Part shown: one piece after another, positions 56,392 through 62,959 of the stretch
Layout: every line of letters starts with the position of its first letter
Position numbering within the stretch: the first letter of the stretch is position 1
Assembly: GCA_014323545.1 (NCBI GenBank)
Contig: CP058647.1
Span: 936,001-1,000,000 of the forward strand
Source: Hyphobacterium sp. CCMP332
GTDB taxonomy: Bacteria; Bacteroidota; Bacteroidia; Cytophagales; CCMP332
Length of the DNA: 64,000 nt
Reading direction: 5' to 3'
Notes under the pieces: generated by a model
What the model saw: only the letters and a program-made list of their open reading frames with translations
Database searches by the model: none
What the model was told of the DNA's origin: nothing
Made by a program: the position numbers and the translations under genes

Positions 56392-56420
56392 AAGGGCATT
56401 TCTTTTGAAGTGCCCTTTTT
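56392..56420 (+). terminator. Rho-independent terminator after clpB
   Basis: AAGGGCA (56392-56398) pairs with TGCCCTT (56411-56417) around a 12-base loop, followed by a T run. The TATATTTG promoter box of the next gene begins at the next base. Confidence 0.8.
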
Positions 56421-56442: not shown

Positions 56443-57081
56443 ATGTATTTCTATCTCAGCCTCACACATAAGATTTCAGTATCGCTTTTCCTGATTATTT
56501 ATCTTTTTAAAGCTTTAATGCTTATTGCTAACCACAAGGAAACTTTGAAGAAATTCTCCAGGTTGGTTAAAATTCCTGAAATGATAATAAGTGTATTATT
56601 TCTCGCTACCGGCGTTTATATGCTAATAAAAGGTGGGCATCCGGAATTATATATGATGGTAAAAATTGTATTGGTACTCGCTTCAATTCCATTGGCCGTG
56701 ATCGGAATTCGGAAAGAAAAAAAATTGTTTTTAGTACTCTCAGTTGTAATCCTCATTTATGTCTATGGTATTGCAGAAACACATAGCCTGACTTTTACCC
56801 ATCCGAGCCCGGAGGGTTTAATTGAAAACGTAGAGGATGATAATTATCAAATTAAAGTACATGGATTGGCATTGTATCAACAGCATTGTCTTCGCTGTCA
56901 CGGAGAGCAGGGAGATAAAATGAGATATGAATCTCCGGATATTTCAACAACAAGCTTAGATAAAGAACAAAGGTGGGCGATTATTAACAATGGCAAGGGC
57001 ATGATGCCTGCTTTTGGTAAAAAACTCGACAAAAATGAAAAAAAGGCATTGGAGGAATACCTTCTGAGTTTAAAAAAATGA
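56443..57081 (+). CDS. SirB2-like membrane domain fused to cytochrome c
   Basis: From the ATG at 56443 the protein has 212 residues. A GTG at 56410 in the same frame lies inside the clpB terminator stem and upstream of the promoter box, so it is rejected. Residues about 1-115 form four hydrophobic segments with a SirB2-like pattern (LTHKISVSLFLIIYLFKALM, then IPEMIISVLFLATGVYML). After a short linker comes a class I cytochrome c domain with the haem motif CLRCH (149-153) and a likely distal methionine in GMMPAFG (about 187-188). The domain should face the periplasm and carry electrons; its partners are not identified here. Confidence 0.85.
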   Translation: MYFYLSLTHKISVSLFLIIYLFKALMLIANHKETLKKFSRLVKIPEMIISVLFLATGVYMLIKGGHPELYMMVKIVLVLASIPLAVIGIRKEKKLFLVLSVVILIYVYGIAETHSLTFTHPSPEGLIENVEDDNYQIKVHGLALYQQHCLRCHGEQGDKMRYESPDISTTSLDKEQRWAIINNGKGMMPAFGKKLDKNEKKALEEYLLSLKK

Positions 57082-57156
57082 TCCCGGCATAATTTAAAAC
57101 AATAATGCAACCAAAATATAGTCGAATAATTGAAAAATTAGTAGATTAAAAGGCTG

Positions 57157-57489
57157 ATGTCAAAAAATGCCTTTATACTGATTTCTTCTTTTTTTCTCTT
57201 GTTGAGTTACTCGGCAATAGGCCAGGGCAATCAAAATTCCATTGGCGTATTTCCTAATCCATTGTTTGATAAAGCTACTTTGGAAATTCACATCGAAAAT
57301 GTTAGTCCAACTGAAATTGTGCTCTTTAACATAATCGGAAAAGAGATTCACAGACAAAAGCTTAGTGGATTAGGGCAGAACAGTAGATTTGAAGTCGATT
57401 TTTCATTTCTAAATCCGGGTGTTTATTTTTTAAGCCTGATTTCAAAACGGGAAACAATAGCGACAAAAAAAATAGTCAAGAAAGGCTAA
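57157..57489 (+). CDS. Stand-alone T9SS C-terminal sorting domain protein
   Basis: A 110-residue protein consisting of a signal peptide (about 1-23, ending YSAIG) and then almost at once a type A sorting domain: IGVFPNPLFDKATLEI (about 29-44), FNIIGKEIHRQKLSG (about 58-72), NPGVYFLSLIS (about 87-97) and a Lys-rich end (TKKIVKKG). There is no room for a cargo domain. It may be a truncated cargo gene, a small surface protein, or a decoy or carrier for the T9SS machinery. No frame continuing the domain upstream was found. The MarR gene follows after 47 bases. Confidence 0.8.
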   Translation: MSKNAFILISSFFLLLSYSAIGQGNQNSIGVFPNPLFDKATLEIHIENVSPTEIVLFNIIGKEIHRQKLSGLGQNSRFEVDFSFLNPGVYFLSLISKRETIATKKIVKKG

Positions 57490-57536: not shown

Positions 57537-57989
57537 ATGGCAAAACTAGAAGATGAAATAAAGCAGTACAAATTTCCAAGTCAGTTTCAAAAAGCACTTT
57601 TAAATTTGATTTATACAGGCAACTGGATTGCAGCCAGGCATAAAAAATTTTTTGCAGAGCACAATTTATCGCATGAACAATACAATGTTTTGCGAATACT
57701 TCGAGGACAGCATCCCAATCCTGCATCAATTCAATTGATCAATGAAAGAATGCTCGACAAAATGTCAAATGTTTCGCGTTTGGTTGAAAAATTACGCGCA
57801 AAATCCTTAATAACACGAACAGTTTCCAGTGAAGACAGGCGGCAGGTAGATGTTAAAATATCAGATAAAGGACTTTCCTTGCTCGCAGAAATGGATGTAG
57901 AAATCGACAAACTTCAAACTTCTATTCAAACAATTTCAGAATCCGAAGCCGAACATTTGAACCAACTTCTCGATAAACTTCGGGGATAA
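57537..57989 (+). CDS. MarR-family transcriptional regulator
   Basis: A 150-residue winged-helix regulator of normal length. The DNA-binding core runs HEQYNVLRILRGQHP (about 43-57), then a recognition helix region NERMLDKMSNVSRLVEKLRAK, and the wing with SSEDRRQVDVKISDKG, the characteristic DRR motif. MarR proteins usually bind as dimers to palindromes near their own promoter and respond to small phenolic or lipophilic ligands or oxidation. An inverted repeat with the same core as that before the YceI gene lies just upstream, so control of both genes is inferred. YceI/MarR linkage is common in this phylum. Confidence 0.93.
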   Translation: MAKLEDEIKQYKFPSQFQKALLNLIYTGNWIAARHKKFFAEHNLSHEQYNVLRILRGQHPNPASIQLINERMLDKMSNVSRLVEKLRAKSLITRTVSSEDRRQVDVKISDKGLSLLAEMDVEIDKLQTSIQTISESEAEHLNQLLDKLRG

Positions 57990-58084: not shown

Positions 58085-61000
58085 ATGTTATCATTTTCCA
58101 GATTGAACAACATAGGCGGATGGATCGCCTTTTTAATAAGTTTTATTGTTTATACAATCACTGTAGAACCAACAGCAAGTTTTTGGGATTGTGGCGAATT
58201 CATATCCGTTTCCTATAAACTAATGGTACCCCATCCTCCCGGAGCGCCATTTTATCTCCTCGTGGGCCGGTTCTTTTCTCTTTTAGCTTTCGGAGATGTT
58301 CTTCAGGTTGCTTTCTGGGTAAATATGTTATCTGTAGTCTCAAGTGCACTTACGGTCCTTTTCACTTTTTGGGCAATTACGCTTCTTGGAAGAAAATTAC
58401 TCAAAACTGAAGATCCTAAAGGCGCCGATCTTTATTTATTAATGGGAGCAGGACTTATTGGATCTTTGGCACTTACATTTTCAGATACATTTTGGTTTTC
58501 TGCTGGAGAAGCAGAAGTGTATGCCATGTCTTCATTTTTTACTGCTTTTGCATTTTGGGCAATATTAAAATGGGAATTAATTGAAGAAAGAGCAGCAGCA
58601 AATCGCTGGTTGCTTCTGATCGCATACACAATGGGCCTGTCCACAGGAGTACACCTTTTAAATTTATTGACAATTCCGGCAATTGCACTTGTTATTTACT
58701 TTAAATATTACAAACCCAATGCGCGCGGAATTATAGCTACTTTGGGAATTTCAGCAGTGGCAATTTTGATTGTTCTTGAAATAATTATCAAAGGACTTCC
58801 CACAATTGCAAGTAAAATAGAAATAGCCTTTGTTAACGGACTAAACCTCCCTTTTGGGTCAGGTGTACTTTTCTTTTTCATTGCCTTTATAGCTGCATTG
58901 ATTTACGGTTTGTTTTATTCTATTCAAAAAAATAAAGCTGTACTTAATACCGCTTTGCTGGCCTTTATTTTTGTCATTCTGGGTTTTAGCAGTTATGGAA
59001 TCATAGCAATTCGGTCAAATTACAATCCGCCCATTAACGAAAATGCACCGGATGATGTCATAAGCTTTTTGAAATATCTAAAAAGAGAACAATACGGTGA
59101 TAGGCCACTTTTTAAAGGACCGATTTACTCGGCCAACCCCGTCAGAACCATCAAAACTTCAGACCTGTATCATAAAACAGAGAATGGTTATGAAATCTAT
59201 GATCAAAAAATCGAACAGGAGTTTAACCCCAGAGATGAAATGCTCTTTTGCCGGGTTGCAGATAGACGAGGAGACAGAATTCGCGCCTATGAAAATTGGA
59301 TGAATCTTAGAAAAGGTGAAAGGCCAACTATGGGTGACAATATTGAGTTTCTTTGGAAATATCAACTCGGTCACATGTATTGGCGATACTTTATGTGGAA
59401 TTTTGCAGGAAGGCAAAATGATATTCAGGGCCACGGAGGAAAAATGCATGGCAACTGGAAATCAGGAATTTCATTTATTGACGAAATGAGGCTCGGTGAT
59501 CAGTCCAAACTTCCCACCGAAATCAAAAACAATAAAGCCAATAACAGTTTTTATTTTCTTCCATTGATTCTGGGCCTATTGGGCATGTTCTACCAATACA
59601 AAAGGAATAAAAAGGACTTTTCAGTAGTAGCACTACTCTTTTTCTTTACAGGGATAGCAATTATTCTTTATCTAAACCAACCTCCCATTGAACCGAGAGA
59701 AAGAGATTATACAAGTGCCGGCTCATTTTATACATTTTGTATTTGGATAGGCTTGGGCATGTTGGCAGTGTACGATTTGATTAAAAATTACATTAAAAAC
59801 AATAAAGTTGCGGGAATAACAGCATTTGTACTTTGTTTGATAGTACCCGGAGTCATGGTCGCAGATGGTTGGGATGATCACGACAGAAGCGGAAGGTATC
59901 ATTCAGTTGACCAGGCCAGAAATTTATTGGCTTCCTGTGCACCAAACGCAATTTTATTTACCGGAGGTGATAATGACACTTTCCCACTTTGGTATGTTCA
60001 GGAAGTTGAAGGATTCCGAACCGATGTGCGTGTTTGTGTAATGAGTTATTTCAGCATAGACTGGTATATCGATCAAATGAAAAGAAAGGTTTATGAATCC
60101 GAGCCATTCCCAATAACATTTACTACCAATCAGTATTTAAGTGGCATCAACGACTATTTACAAATAGTACCGGATCAGCGTTGGGAAAAAACAGCGCTTA
60201 ATATAGACAAGCTTTTAGAGGCCATAAAAACTGAAGATGCGCTGGTTAACCGACGCTTACCAAGTGGTGACAGAATCAATATATTACCAGGTAAAAACCT
60301 TGGAATGAGAGTCAATAAAGAAGCCTTATTGGGTGGTGATTTAAGCTCAGAAACAAGCGCAAGCAAAAGCAATTGGATTCCAGGCGATATGAAGGATGAA
60401 ATTGTAGATATAATGCGGTGGAACATCAAAGGCAATCACATTCTTAAAGCCGATTTAATGATAATGGATATTATCAATAATGTAAATAAAAACGGCTGGG
60501 AAAGACCCGTATATTTTAATGCTACGTCATTGATTACCACAAATCTGGATTTGAGGAATTATATGTTGTTGGAAGGGCTCGCCTATAGATTAATACCGGT
60601 AAGTTCACCAAAACAGCAGAATGGCAGAGTTAATATTGAAGTTATGTACGACAACATAATGAACAAGTTTGCCTTTAGGGGAATGGACAATCCTGACTTA
60701 TACTATAATGAAGAGTATCAAAAATTTGCGATGAACTCAAGACAAAGTTTTTACAGATTGGCCGATGCCTTGTTGCGAAGAGCCAATGATAAAGAAAGAG
60801 CAAGGGAAGTAATTGAGAGATGCTGGAGCGTTTTACCGGATGAGGTATTTCCATTTAGCGTATATTCTGCTCAATTTTTACCTCTTTTTTATGAAGTAGA
60901 AGTAGAAGGCACGACTGAAATGGCGATGAAAATGGGTGATAAGGCCATAGAAATGATCGAATTTCTTGTTAATGAAAATGTTAATGACAGACAGGAAATT

Positions 61001-61117
61001 CAAGCCAATTTGTATATGCTTAATGTTGTTCAAAGGACTCTATCACAGAATGCCAGTGAAGAAGAGGCCGCTAAATACCAGGAAGCTTTACAAAGGTTCT
61101 CTTCGATCAATATTTAA
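58085..61117 (+). CDS. DUF2723-family membrane protein (TMEM260-like, putative glycosyltransferase)
   Basis: A 1010-residue protein. The N-terminal half is polytopic, with at least ten hydrophobic segments and the DUF2723 opening TVEPTASFWDCGEFISVSYKL, then VPHPPGAPFYLLVGRFFSL, where the acidic Asp/Glu resembles the loop of GT-C glycosyltransferases. The C-terminal half (about 620-1010) is a soluble domain that begins near CAPNAILFTGGDNDTFPLWYVQ and ends with TPR-like helices. The eukaryotic relative TMEM260 is a protein O-mannosyltransferase; glycosyl transfer to envelope proteins is therefore plausible. Proteins of about 1000 residues with this architecture are typical of Bacteroidota. It is followed after five bases by rlmB. 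Confidence 0.85.
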   Translation: MLSFSRLNNIGGWIAFLISFIVYTITVEPTASFWDCGEFISVSYKLMVPHPPGAPFYLLVGRFFSLLAFGDVLQVAFWVNMLSVVSSALTVLFTFWAITLLGRKLLKTEDPKGADLYLLMGAGLIGSLALTFSDTFWFSAGEAEVYAMSSFFTAFAFWAILKWELIEERAAANRWLLLIAYTMGLSTGVHLLNLLTIPAIALVIYFKYYKPNARGIIATLGISAVAILIVLEIIIKGLPTIASKIEIAFVNGLNLPFGSGVLFFFIAFIAALIYGLFYSIQKNKAVLNTALLAFIFVILGFSSYGIIAIRSNYNPPINENAPDDVISFLKYLKREQYGDRPLFKGPIYSANPVRTIKTSDLYHKTENGYEIYDQKIEQEFNPRDEMLFCRVADRRGDRIRAYENWMNLRKGERPTMGDNIEFLWKYQLGHMYWRYFMWNFAGRQNDIQGHGGKMHGNWKSGISFIDEMRLGDQSKLPTEIKNNKANNSFYFLPLILGLLGMFYQYKRNKKDFSVVALLFFFTGIAIILYLNQPPIEPRERDYTSAGSFYTFCIWIGLGMLAVYDLIKNYIKNNKVAGITAFVLCLIVPGVMVADGWDDHDRSGRYHSVDQARNLLASCAPNAILFTGGDNDTFPLWYVQEVEGFRTDVRVCVMSYFSIDWYIDQMKRKVYESEPFPITFTTNQYLSGINDYLQIVPDQRWEKTALNIDKLLEAIKTEDALVNRRLPSGDRINILPGKNLGMRVNKEALLGGDLSSETSASKSNWIPGDMKDEIVDIMRWNIKGNHILKADLMIMDIINNVNKNGWERPVYFNATSLITTNLDLRNYMLLEGLAYRLIPVSSPKQQNGRVNIEVMYDNIMNKFAFRGMDNPDLYYNEEYQKFAMNSRQSFYRLADALLRRANDKERAREVIERCWSVLPDEVFPFSVYSAQFLPLFYEVEVEGTTEMAMKMGDKAIEMIEFLVNENVNDRQEIQANLYMLNVVQRTLSQNASEEEAAKYQEALQRFSSINI

Positions 61118-61122
61118 TTAGT

Positions 61123-61884
61123 ATGAATTTTAACCGAAGACCTCAAAAATCAAATGTTCCCTTAGTATTTGGGGTTAATCCGGTTGAAGAGGCATTGAAT
61201 GCAGGAAAGGAATTAGAAAAAATTCTGATTCAAAAAGGCATTGGGAAAGAAAAGATTCGATCCATTTTAGATGAAGCCCGCAAAAGAAGAATTCCAATTT
61301 CTGAGGTGCCAATTCAAAAAATGAATCAGTGGGTTTCTAAACCTCATCAGGGAATAATCGCTTTCCTTGCTTTGATTTCATACCATTCATTGGATGCCAT
61401 CATTGACAGTTCATTTGAGGCCGGCAAAGACCCAATAATCCTTGCACTTGATAATGTCACCGATGTCCGAAATTTCGGAGCGATTTCACGAAGTGCTGAA
61501 GCAATGGGAGTTGATGCAATTGTAATTCCTGTTAAAGGAGGAGCAATGATTAACGGTGATGCTATTAAAACAAGCGCTGGCGCTTTGAATCATATTCCGG
61601 TTTGCAGGGAAGCAAAATTAGAATCTGCGATTTTGCACCTGAAAAACCGAGGGCTTAGAATTATTTCCTGCACAGAAAAATCAGAATTTGTATTGAGTGA
61701 TACAGATCTAAAAGGTCCTATTTGCATTGTAATGGGAGCGGAAGACACCGGAATTTCAAAAGAGATTTTAAGTATTTCTGATGATATAACTGCAATTCCG
61801 ATGGTGGGAAGAATAGGTTCCTTAAACGTTTCCGTGGCCTCAGGTGTAATACTATATGAAGCCTTAAAGCAAAGGACTAAATAA
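61123..61884 (+). CDS. rlmB: 23S rRNA (guanosine-2'-O-)-methyltransferase RlmB
   Basis: A 253-residue SpoU-family methyltransferase that modifies a conserved guanosine of 23S rRNA (G2251 in E. coli). The N-terminal substrate-binding domain starts at VFGVNPVEEALNAG. The SPOUT knot has LDNVTDVRNFGAISRSAEAMG (catalytic arginine and asparagine), IVMGAEDTGIS and IPMVGRIGSLNVSVASGV, the three SpoU motifs. Length is normal. It lies five bases after the DUF2723 gene and overlaps the convergent manC gene by eight bases. Confidence 0.93.
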   Translation: MNFNRRPQKSNVPLVFGVNPVEEALNAGKELEKILIQKGIGKEKIRSILDEARKRRIPISEVPIQKMNQWVSKPHQGIIAFLALISYHSLDAIIDSSFEAGKDPIILALDNVTDVRNFGAISRSAEAMGVDAIVIPVKGGAMINGDAIKTSAGALNHIPVCREAKLESAILHLKNRGLRIISCTEKSEFVLSDTDLKGPICIVMGAEDTGISKEILSISDDITAIPMVGRIGSLNVSVASGVILYEALKQRTK

Positions 61885-62959
61885 ATTTTGAGAGGTCTTT
61901 GTTTTGCTTTATATCGGTAACAAAGTTTTTTACCTGCTGCTCATACTCTTTTCTACAAATCATTACCACATCTCCATGTTGAACAACTATATAGTTGTCC
62001 AGCCCGTCGACTACCATTAATTTGTCACCATCCGATTTTATTATGCAATTGTTGGTTTCATTTAACAGCACTTTCCCGTCAATTACATTTTTATTGTCGT
62101 CCTTCTTTTTTGTTTCAAAAAGAGATTTCCAAGTTCCCAAATCAGTCCAACCAAAATCAGATGGAAAAACATATACATTAGATGCTTTCTCCATAATGCC
62201 ATAATCAATGCTGATATTTCTGCATTGTGAGTAAACACTTCTTATAAAGTCATTCTCATTTTTTGTGTAATATTTGGTCTTATCACTGAAAAATAATTCT
62301 GAGACTTCCGGAAGATACTTTTCCAATGCAGATTCTATTGAATTGATATTCCAGATAAAAATTCCGGAATTCCATAAAAAATCGCCGCTTTCGACAAATG
62401 TTTTGGCCAGATCTGCATCAGGCTTTTCTGTAAATGTCTTTACTTTTTTAATTGTATTCTCATCGTGATGAAACTGAATATATCCATAGCCGGTATCGGG
62501 TCTTGAAGGATGAATCCCCAGTGTTAGAAGAGAATCATTATTTGAAACATAATTCATGCCTTCATTTATCACTCTTTGAAACTCTGTCGTATCAAGTATC
62601 ACGTGATCAGAGGGGCAGACTATTATATTTGCTTGCTGATTTAACGTTGAAATTTTACTAACACCGTAAGCAATGCAAGGTGCAGTATTTCTTCCTACAG
62701 GTTCAAGGAGGATTTGATCATCTTTTAAAAACCTTAACTGACTTTTTACAATCTCCTTGTAATCTTCATTTGTGACTACATAAATATTTTCTCTTGGAAT
62801 TATTCCATCAAAACGATCAATCGTTTGCTGTATGAGTGTTTTTCCGGTTCCCAAAATGTCAAGAAATTGTTTGGGCTCTTTAGAGCGGCTAAAGGGCCAA
62901 AAACGACTCCCTACACCACCTGCCATCACTATCAAGAAATTATTATTTATCTGAGTCAC
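61877..62959 (-). CDS. manC: Mannose-1-phosphate guanylyltransferase
   Basis: The 360-residue enzyme makes GDP-mannose from mannose-1-phosphate and GTP. The nucleotide-binding signature is MAGGVGSRFWPFSR (about 12-25), followed by PKQFLDILGTGKTLIQQT, PSDHVI (metal-binding aspartate), FTEKPD and FLWNSGIFIWN. It lacks the C-terminal isomerase domain of bifunctional ManC/AlgA, so it is the short monofunctional form. GDP-mannose would feed exopolysaccharide or glycoprotein synthesis. An AT-rich inverted repeat lies about 35 bases upstream of its start. Confidence 0.93.
   Translation of the reverse strand: MTQINNNFLIVMAGGVGSRFWPFSRSKEPKQFLDILGTGKTLIQQTIDRFDGIIPRENIYVVTNEDYKEIVKSQLRFLKDDQILLEPVGRNTAPCIAYGVSKISTLNQQANIIVCPSDHVILDTTEFQRVINEGMNYVSNNDSLLTLGIHPSRPDTGYGYIQFHHDENTIKKVKTFTEKPDADLAKTFVESGDFLWNSGIFIWNINSIESALEKYLPEVSELFFSDKTKYYTKNENDFIRSVYSQCRNISIDYGIMEKASNVYVFPSDFGWTDLGTWKSLFETKKKDDNKNVIDGKVLLNETNNCIIKSDGDKLMVVDGLDNYIVVQHGDVVMICRKEYEQQVKNFVTDIKQNKDLSKFI

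Follow-up and report, generated by a model that had tools for sequence, protein, structure and literature searches.

The stretch of DNA analysed here (64,000 nucleotides, hereafter the window) carries on its plus strand an open reading frame that runs from an ATG to a TAA and encodes a protein of 110 residues made up of a probable signal peptide and a T9SS sorting domain (CTD). The gene and its surroundings are arranged as follows, in window positions (genomes, families and loci are given below by their G, f and L numbers, respectively):

56392-56417, plus strand: terminator-like hairpin after clpB
56443-57081, plus strand: cytochrome c-domain protein (profile matches), ending 75 bp upstream of the CTD gene
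57157-57489, plus strand: CTD-only protein, 110 aa (ORF call, TIGR04183 and PF18962 matches)
57157-57222, plus strand: probable Sec signal peptide, residues 1-22 (hydropathy and inspection)
57247-57483, plus strand: type A T9SS sorting domain, residues 31-109 (PNP 33-35, GVY 88-90, K105)
57537-57989, plus strand: MarR-family regulator (profile matches), 47 bp downstream of the CTD gene
58085-61117, plus strand: TMEM260-like (PF11028) membrane protein (E = 1.6e-69)
61123-61884, plus strand: 23S rRNA methyltransferase RlmB, found at the same place in G001, G102, G141, G191 and others
61877-62959, minus strand: mannose-1-phosphate guanylyltransferase-like protein (313 bits, under the 373-bit equivalog cut-off), found at the same place in G001, G102, G141 and G191

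The order is therefore cytochrome, CTD, marR, TMEM260-like, rlmB and, on the opposite strand, guanylyltransferase-like. From the end of the cytochrome gene to the start of the TMEM260-like gene, the plus strand showed no further terminator-like hairpin.

A protein with a sorting domain and no cargo

Residues 1-22 resemble a signal peptide by eye and by hydropathy (K3, a hydrophobic core, and AIG|Q). The sorting domain matches the whole of both available profiles, TIGR04183 over residues 31-109 (43.9 bits, cut-off 23) and PF18962 over residues 31-107 (43.8 bits, cut-off 27), and since both full-length profiles are exceeded above their cut-offs, the match is not a chance one. With a spacing of about eight residues between signal peptide and CTD, a cargo domain is absent and the classical layout of T9SS cargo is not found; nor is the PorA-type layout, a FimH-like N-terminal domain followed by a CTD, for which the protein lacks the N-terminal room. 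The profiles, hydropathy and inspection thus bear out the original prediction, which had described a cargo-free protein of 110 residues with a signal peptide and a sorting domain of about 80 residues. Its further claim of a proper start and stop, with no upstream coding continuation of the domain, also holds: an in-frame TAG (57142-57144) lies four codons 5' of the ATG, so that no upstream frame extends the sorting domain. K105 is invariant in alignments A1 and A3. The Cys that follows G-[VI]-Y-[FL] in the other five rows of A1 is lost in the window protein, which also holds no D-S or D-T.

The structural model predicted from a nine-row alignment has one helix (residues 4-20) and seven strands (mean pLDDT 77, block values over the CTD 71-91), and as modelled is a seven-stranded Ig-like sandwich. 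In a Foldseek search with this predicted fold no row reached E = 1e-3, and the best two were T9SS CTDs within SprA-PorV complexes (8gl8_D and 8gl6_D; E = 3.6e-3 and 4.2e-3). Structural matches by VIA-align included the CTDs of mirolase (Z = 8.8), PorU (8.2) and PorZ (8.0), values that many unrelated Ig-like folds tie, some lying above the best CTD. A sequence search of the PDB with the window protein alone returned mirolase only (E = 0.72); with the A1 profile it returned T9SS CTD-bearing proteins (best E = 6e-4).

In the genome from which the window comes (one contig, 3.33 Mb), a search with PF18962 gave 114 matches at E <= 0.01. Among these, the window gene has the shortest open frame (114 codons), followed by frames of 139, 150, 154, 168 and 170 codons, of which those of 139 and 154 score under the family cut-off. 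SprA is present (2414 bits). The protein accordingly has what marks a T9SS client, a Sec signal peptide, recognised by inspection, and a T9SS in the genome, recognised from SprA alone. The SprA match itself (L278, G000:C1:1366623-1373708) is reported with one internal TAA.

A probable CTD family of the Cytophagales

The original prediction had proposed a search for orthologues of the same length. With the window protein as query against 59 genomes of the order, no close orthologue was found (best identity 39%). Over all searches, relatives of the same length came from several families. The first, second and fourth foreign matches were stand-alone proteins (G032, E = 2.2e-14; G021, 1.1e-12; G036, 3.4e-11), the third was the CTD tail of a long protein (G018, 9.7e-12), and the fifth was a fusion with a cupredoxin (G004). 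We then took the stand-alone protein of G032 as an independent single query against 15 Cytophagales genomes, most of them picked for earlier matches. One CTD led in 13 of the 15 (E = 1.9e-33 to 2.1e-11), and this leading CTD was stand-alone in 10 of the 13 and cupredoxin-fused in three (G102, G141, G004). In the genome of the window the leader was the window protein itself (1.0e-14, next CTD 2.5e-6); the lead was narrow solely in G010 (2.1e-11 vs 3.0e-9). G001 and G002, which are of the window's own family, have no CTD gene of this kind.

A family model from which the window and its family had been left out gave the window protein 71.6 bits; of the 114 CTDs in its own genome, the 20 scored reached at most 42.9 bits. 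The window protein is, by sequence, an outstanding match to the Cytophagales CTD family. The copies tested from family f12 scored 42.8-58.3 bits and those of f8 34.3 and 38.6 bits; because these values overlap in part with those of ordinary CTDs, the case for orthology is weak or lacking in both. We likewise set aside as family orthologues, along with the f8 genes, a set of bamD-linked CTD-only genes (29.6 and 43.1 bits).

When 291 genomes were searched with a profile, the top nine places were all taken by short frames (109-134 codons); six of these had built the profile and three (G075, G078, G088) were new. The places that followed were held by five frames of 207-232 codons; four of them, read again (G191, G141, G116, G102), are cupredoxin fusions, as is the frame of G153. 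Titled records put the relatives in the Cytophagales. The stand-alone homologue of G075 is encoded at C1:421086-421403. In a CTD tree the window protein grouped with the family (support 86/88, few alignment columns), and in a larger one, also of few columns, it was not firmly placed. The PNP motif has been lost from the stand-alone copies of G047, G196 and G170, in which most of the C-terminal half is kept. From these sequence comparisons, the window protein would belong to an orthologue-like CTD family of the Cytophagales, and would not be an isolated accident.

We estimated dN/dS for stand-alone genes of several lineages, compared in 17 pairs. The ratio was finite in 13 (0.03-0.27), including six pairs within the Cytophagales CTD family (0.08-0.23), and four pairs were saturated, the window gene against that of G032 among them. 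Judged by these ratios, stand-alone CTD genes of other species are under purifying selection; constraint on the window gene itself is inferred, as the genomes searched gave no close relative. Together with the relatives of the same length, this supports the option of a genuine cargo-less protein, one of those originally considered.

CTD-only genes also occur in other lineages. One comprises L040 (6996-7415), L041 (7809-8228), L042 (7229-7597) and L217 (3616-4020); in the first three, which span two families, the gene is directly upstream of bamD (dN/dS 0.03 for G025 vs G040), and in L042 and L217 PYP replaces PNP. CTD-only proteins of 141 and 145 residues with common neighbours are encoded in G051 and G022 of family f2 (L163, 6913-7338; L164, 6553-6990). 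Outside the order, such genes were seen in tandem in L281 (G466; 980-1303 and 1495-1833), and in L291 (1486-1812) and L121 (2043-2384), the last being an Aquimarina record.

Presence and absence of cargo

Within family f15 the same CTD gene has a cupredoxin cargo in some species and no cargo in others. Cupredoxin-like cargo was recognised in G102, G141, G191, G116, G004, G127 and G073, an assignment for which the Pfam scores range from under to just above the cut-off in the four tested, and which was made by inspection in G141, G191 and G073. Longer spacers with no named domain occur in G086, G100, G059, G114 and G139. In G013, which is of another family than f15, the CTD gene retains what a deletion has left of a cupredoxin (36.5% identity with G127 over 63 residues, E = 6e-6). 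On a tree of TMEM260-like proteins in which we labelled 33 of the 44 rows for cargo (f12 and f8 included), at least five changes between cargo and no cargo are required, a count from which their direction cannot be read. The proteins of G102 and G141 are identical at 82 of 88 positions of the CTD and at 49 of 119 positions of the signal peptide and cupredoxin. These patterns suggest that cargo comes and goes and that the tag stays.

Linkage to a TMEM260-like gene

In three f15 genomes (G102, G141, G191) the order is YifB, CTD, TMEM260-like, rlmB and guanylyltransferase-like, the last three being homologous to those of the window, and from the CTD gene onward it equals the window's except for marR. 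The CTD gene also adjoins the TMEM260-like gene in G129, G116, G061, G196, G170 and G208 of f15, and it is directly upstream and co-directional in all nine of these f15 genomes and in G004 (f3). In f12 the TMEM260-like gene directly follows a CTD gene in four of four genomes and in 11 others fetched for their CTD matches; the CTD-only genes of G114, G159, G184 and G263 (f12) do not adjoin it. In all seven f8 genomes read, the TMEM260-like gene and a stand-alone CTD gene converge. These f8 genes (L045, 6500-6829, and its likes in L046, L212, L213 and L243-L245) come from assemblies of 1.2-1.6 Mb, some incomplete, and overlap the 3' end of the TMEM260-like gene by 4-8 bp in six of the seven, the two genes being 7 bp apart in L243.

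CTD genes near TMEM260-like genes were sought with a purpose-built model (E <= 1e-3), which degenerate copies could escape. None was found beside the TMEM260-like gene in G016, G032, G075 and G088 of f15, in G047 (a 7-kb contig), in the parts of G202 and G178 that were read, or in any of 53 genomes from 15 other families (flanks of 1.5-2 kb, some cut by a contig end). The linkage is real and confined to some lineages; since the TMEM260-like gene is nearly universal (136 of 148), it may be an inherited chance. We also considered marR as a conserved partner and rejected it: among 30 marR loci examined with a six-row model, a CTD gene adjoined it in the window and G034 only, and marR is widespread in the order.

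The region in the nearest relatives

In G001 the corresponding region reads clpB, a T9SS cargo of 1,814 residues, a small OM protein, cytochrome, TMEM260-like, rlmB and guanylyltransferase-like. The arrangement is like this in G002, where the contig starts just before a cargo gene of 1,826 residues and ends with the TMEM260-like gene. The TMEM260-like proteins of both are 62-64% identical to that of the window, their genes lie directly downstream of a homologue of the cytochrome gene, and no CTD-only gene was found in this region of either genome. The large T9SS proteins are encoded at L197 2163-7607 (1,814 residues, with Ig_7 domains, beside clpB) and L196 152-5632 (1,826 residues). Their CTDs end about 1.4 kb upstream of the TMEM260-like gene, two genes away, and the cytochrome gene separates them from the position held by the CTD gene of the window; in the window itself, no large T9SS cargo gene lies between clpB and the cytochrome gene.

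A long cargo gene at this locus in relatives, with a frameshift or deletion in the window, had been named as the case that would refute a genuine cargo-less protein. This holds in part: a long T9SS gene does exist in the region of both relatives; however, it lies across the cytochrome gene, and with the family model its CTD scores 39.4 bits in G002 and 27.0 bits in G001, in the range of ordinary CTDs. The best match of the window protein in G002 is this CTD, and an AU test did not reject a clade uniting the two (p = 0.08). Derivation of the window gene from the large cargo gene is unsupported by score (39.4 and 27.0 vs 71.6 bits). Because the large-cargo CTD scores outside the family, we consider it unlikely, on these sequence scores, that the window gene is a truncation relic of that gene.

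Discussion

The window gene very probably encodes a genuine, selected CTD-only client of the T9SS. The best overall explanation, to which we give a probability of roughly 0.55, is that it is the cargo-free form of a CTD family, whose folded tag would work at the carrier, translocon or attachment site of the T9SS, or at the surface. The precursor would pass through Sec; once in the periplasm, the CTD would adopt its seven-stranded sandwich fold and, as other type A CTDs do, attach to the loops of PorV inside the SprA pore. With no cargo to carry, the working part would be the folded CTD. Its most likely site would be the carrier, translocon or attachment site, where it may serve as a ligand, spacer or reporter of T9SS traffic; alternatively, it may end as a small OM or surface module, like the uncleaved CTDs of PorU and PorZ. 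We propose a role at the carrier or translocon tentatively, because PorU and PorZ keep working CTDs, the small CTD protein PorA regulates the T9SS, and both PorV and SprA are binding partners of type A CTDs.

The protein could instead be a small peptide of an ordinary kind, secreted or on the surface, that leaves by the T9SS or another route, with its CTD displayed or released and playing no part in the machinery. Such a peptide has a precedent in the appearance of Fjoh_0547 in culture supernatants, even those of sprA and porV mutants (PMC7712824, available text), and would suit the unlike neighbours of several other CTD-only lineages; however, the family CTD is kept while its cargo changes, so that a role of the CTD fits better, and we regard an incidental peptide as rather unlikely. 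It is also improbable that the gene is a relic, decaying or without function, of a longer T9SS gene that has lost its cargo, one of the options originally offered. The cupredoxin remnant of G013 records a real loss of cargo at a related gene, which means that a cargo-bearing ancestor may have existed, and the cargo gene of 1,814 or 1,826 residues in G001 and G002, with its CTD as top match in G002 and the clade left standing by the AU test, points the same way. Against decay, the start, stop, signal peptide and full CTD are all intact, stand-alone genes elsewhere are under purifying selection, and the large-cargo CTDs, with their ordinary scores, lie across the cytochrome gene; of that option, the cargo-bearing ancestor may therefore stand, and the look of decay is missing.

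Two further proposals assign the protein a specific partner. As a decoy, it would occupy the sortase PorU or the carrier PorV and throttle the export of cargo; its domain is complete and type A CTDs do bind PorV and SprA (PMC10994853, available text), but one short gene faces 113 other matches in the genome and would need high expression, which makes a throttle hard to credit. The protein may occupy the sortase; binding of CTDs is better documented for PorV, the carrier, and for SprA. Alternatively, the TMEM260-like protein, taken to be a protein O-mannosyltransferase for Ig-like domains such as T9SS CTDs, would have it as a substrate or partner. Human TMEM260 mannosylates Ig-like IPT domains. 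It is described as an enzyme that initiates O-mannose on protein classes including plexins. This proposal draws on the CTD gene lying directly upstream and co-directional in 15 f12 genomes, nine f15 genomes and G004, with marR intervening in the window and a convergent arrangement in the f8 genomes read; on the mannose-1-phosphate guanylyltransferase-like gene that then follows in the window, G001, G102, G141 and G191; and on reports that C. hutchinsonii glycosylates the CTD of Cel9A (PMC11858162) and that the OTase of Bacteroidota O-glycosylation is undiscovered (PMC12871550), each in its available text. It has only a slim chance of being right, as no adjoining CTD gene was found in any of the 53 genomes read from 15 other families or in four f15 genomes, and no CTD gene directly adjoins in G001 and G002; moreover, the near-universal TMEM260-like gene may owe the linkage to inherited chance, and D-S and D-T are missing from the window protein. 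In the boldest version, a long shot, the nearby TMEM260-like enzyme would be a Bacteroidota protein O-mannosyltransferase that puts its mark on the Ig-like T9SS tag, and the CTD-only protein would be the client reserved for it or the partner that lends it specificity. If true, the locus would join the missing first step of Bacteroidota O-glycosylation to T9SS sorting.

The preferred reading, a cargo-free tag with work of its own, bears on how T9SS tags are seen. They are mostly viewed as addresses that are cut off and discarded, and a separate tag gene that is under selection while its cargo is swapped or dropped points to a function for the tag as such. The window protein would be a minimal natural client for probing how PorV, SprA and the sortase handle an empty tag, and the CTD-only locus offers a testable lead on its TMEM260-like neighbour.

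Comparison with known systems

In the openly licensed literature (subscription papers lie outside it) we found no paper on the Cytophagales CTD family or on its TMEM260 linkage. The type A CTDs of RemZ, RemA and mirolase belong to the same domain family and share the seven-strand fold of the window protein; unlike it, they form the C-terminal ends of longer cargo proteins. Inside the pore, type A CTDs make contact with SprA and with loops of PorV, and in the CTD of RemZ one conserved Lys contacts PorV (PMC10994853); K105 of the window protein is taken to be this Lys, matched by motif rather than superposition. The CTDs of PorU and PorZ have a similar Ig-like fold but belong to large attachment-complex proteins, and according to the available text they stay uncleaved, on PorV and PorQ (PMC10202324).

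PorA of Porphyromonas gingivalis (PGN_0123) is likewise a small T9SS CTD protein, whose CTD binds PorV and which acts on T9SS regulation (PMC7712824). It differs in its 246 residues, its FimH-like N-terminal domain, of which the window protein has no counterpart, and its restriction to Porphyromonas, as the available text of the same source has it. The cupredoxin and CTD proteins of f15 and f3, to which there are similar ones in f12, carry the family CTD (G116, 118.9 bits; G102, 116.9; G004, 88.2) and lie upstream of the TMEM260-like gene, but are about 200 residues long with a cupredoxin-like cargo; the f12 fusion tested (G127, 42.8 bits) scores no better than ordinary CTDs.

A published precedent for a CTD-only protein is Fjoh_0547 of Flavobacterium johnsoniae, likened here by its description as a small secreted CTD-containing protein of 112 residues. 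Its presence in supernatants of the sprA and porV mutants is given by the available text of PMC7712824, citing earlier work. This reported secretion without SprA and PorV sets it apart from the route proposed for the window protein, and some CTD-only proteins may therefore bypass SprA. That small CTD-only proteins exist was thus already known, with little said of them; new, as far as the openly licensed literature shows, are the Cytophagales family, the loss or exchange of its cargo, and its linkage to a TMEM260-like gene.
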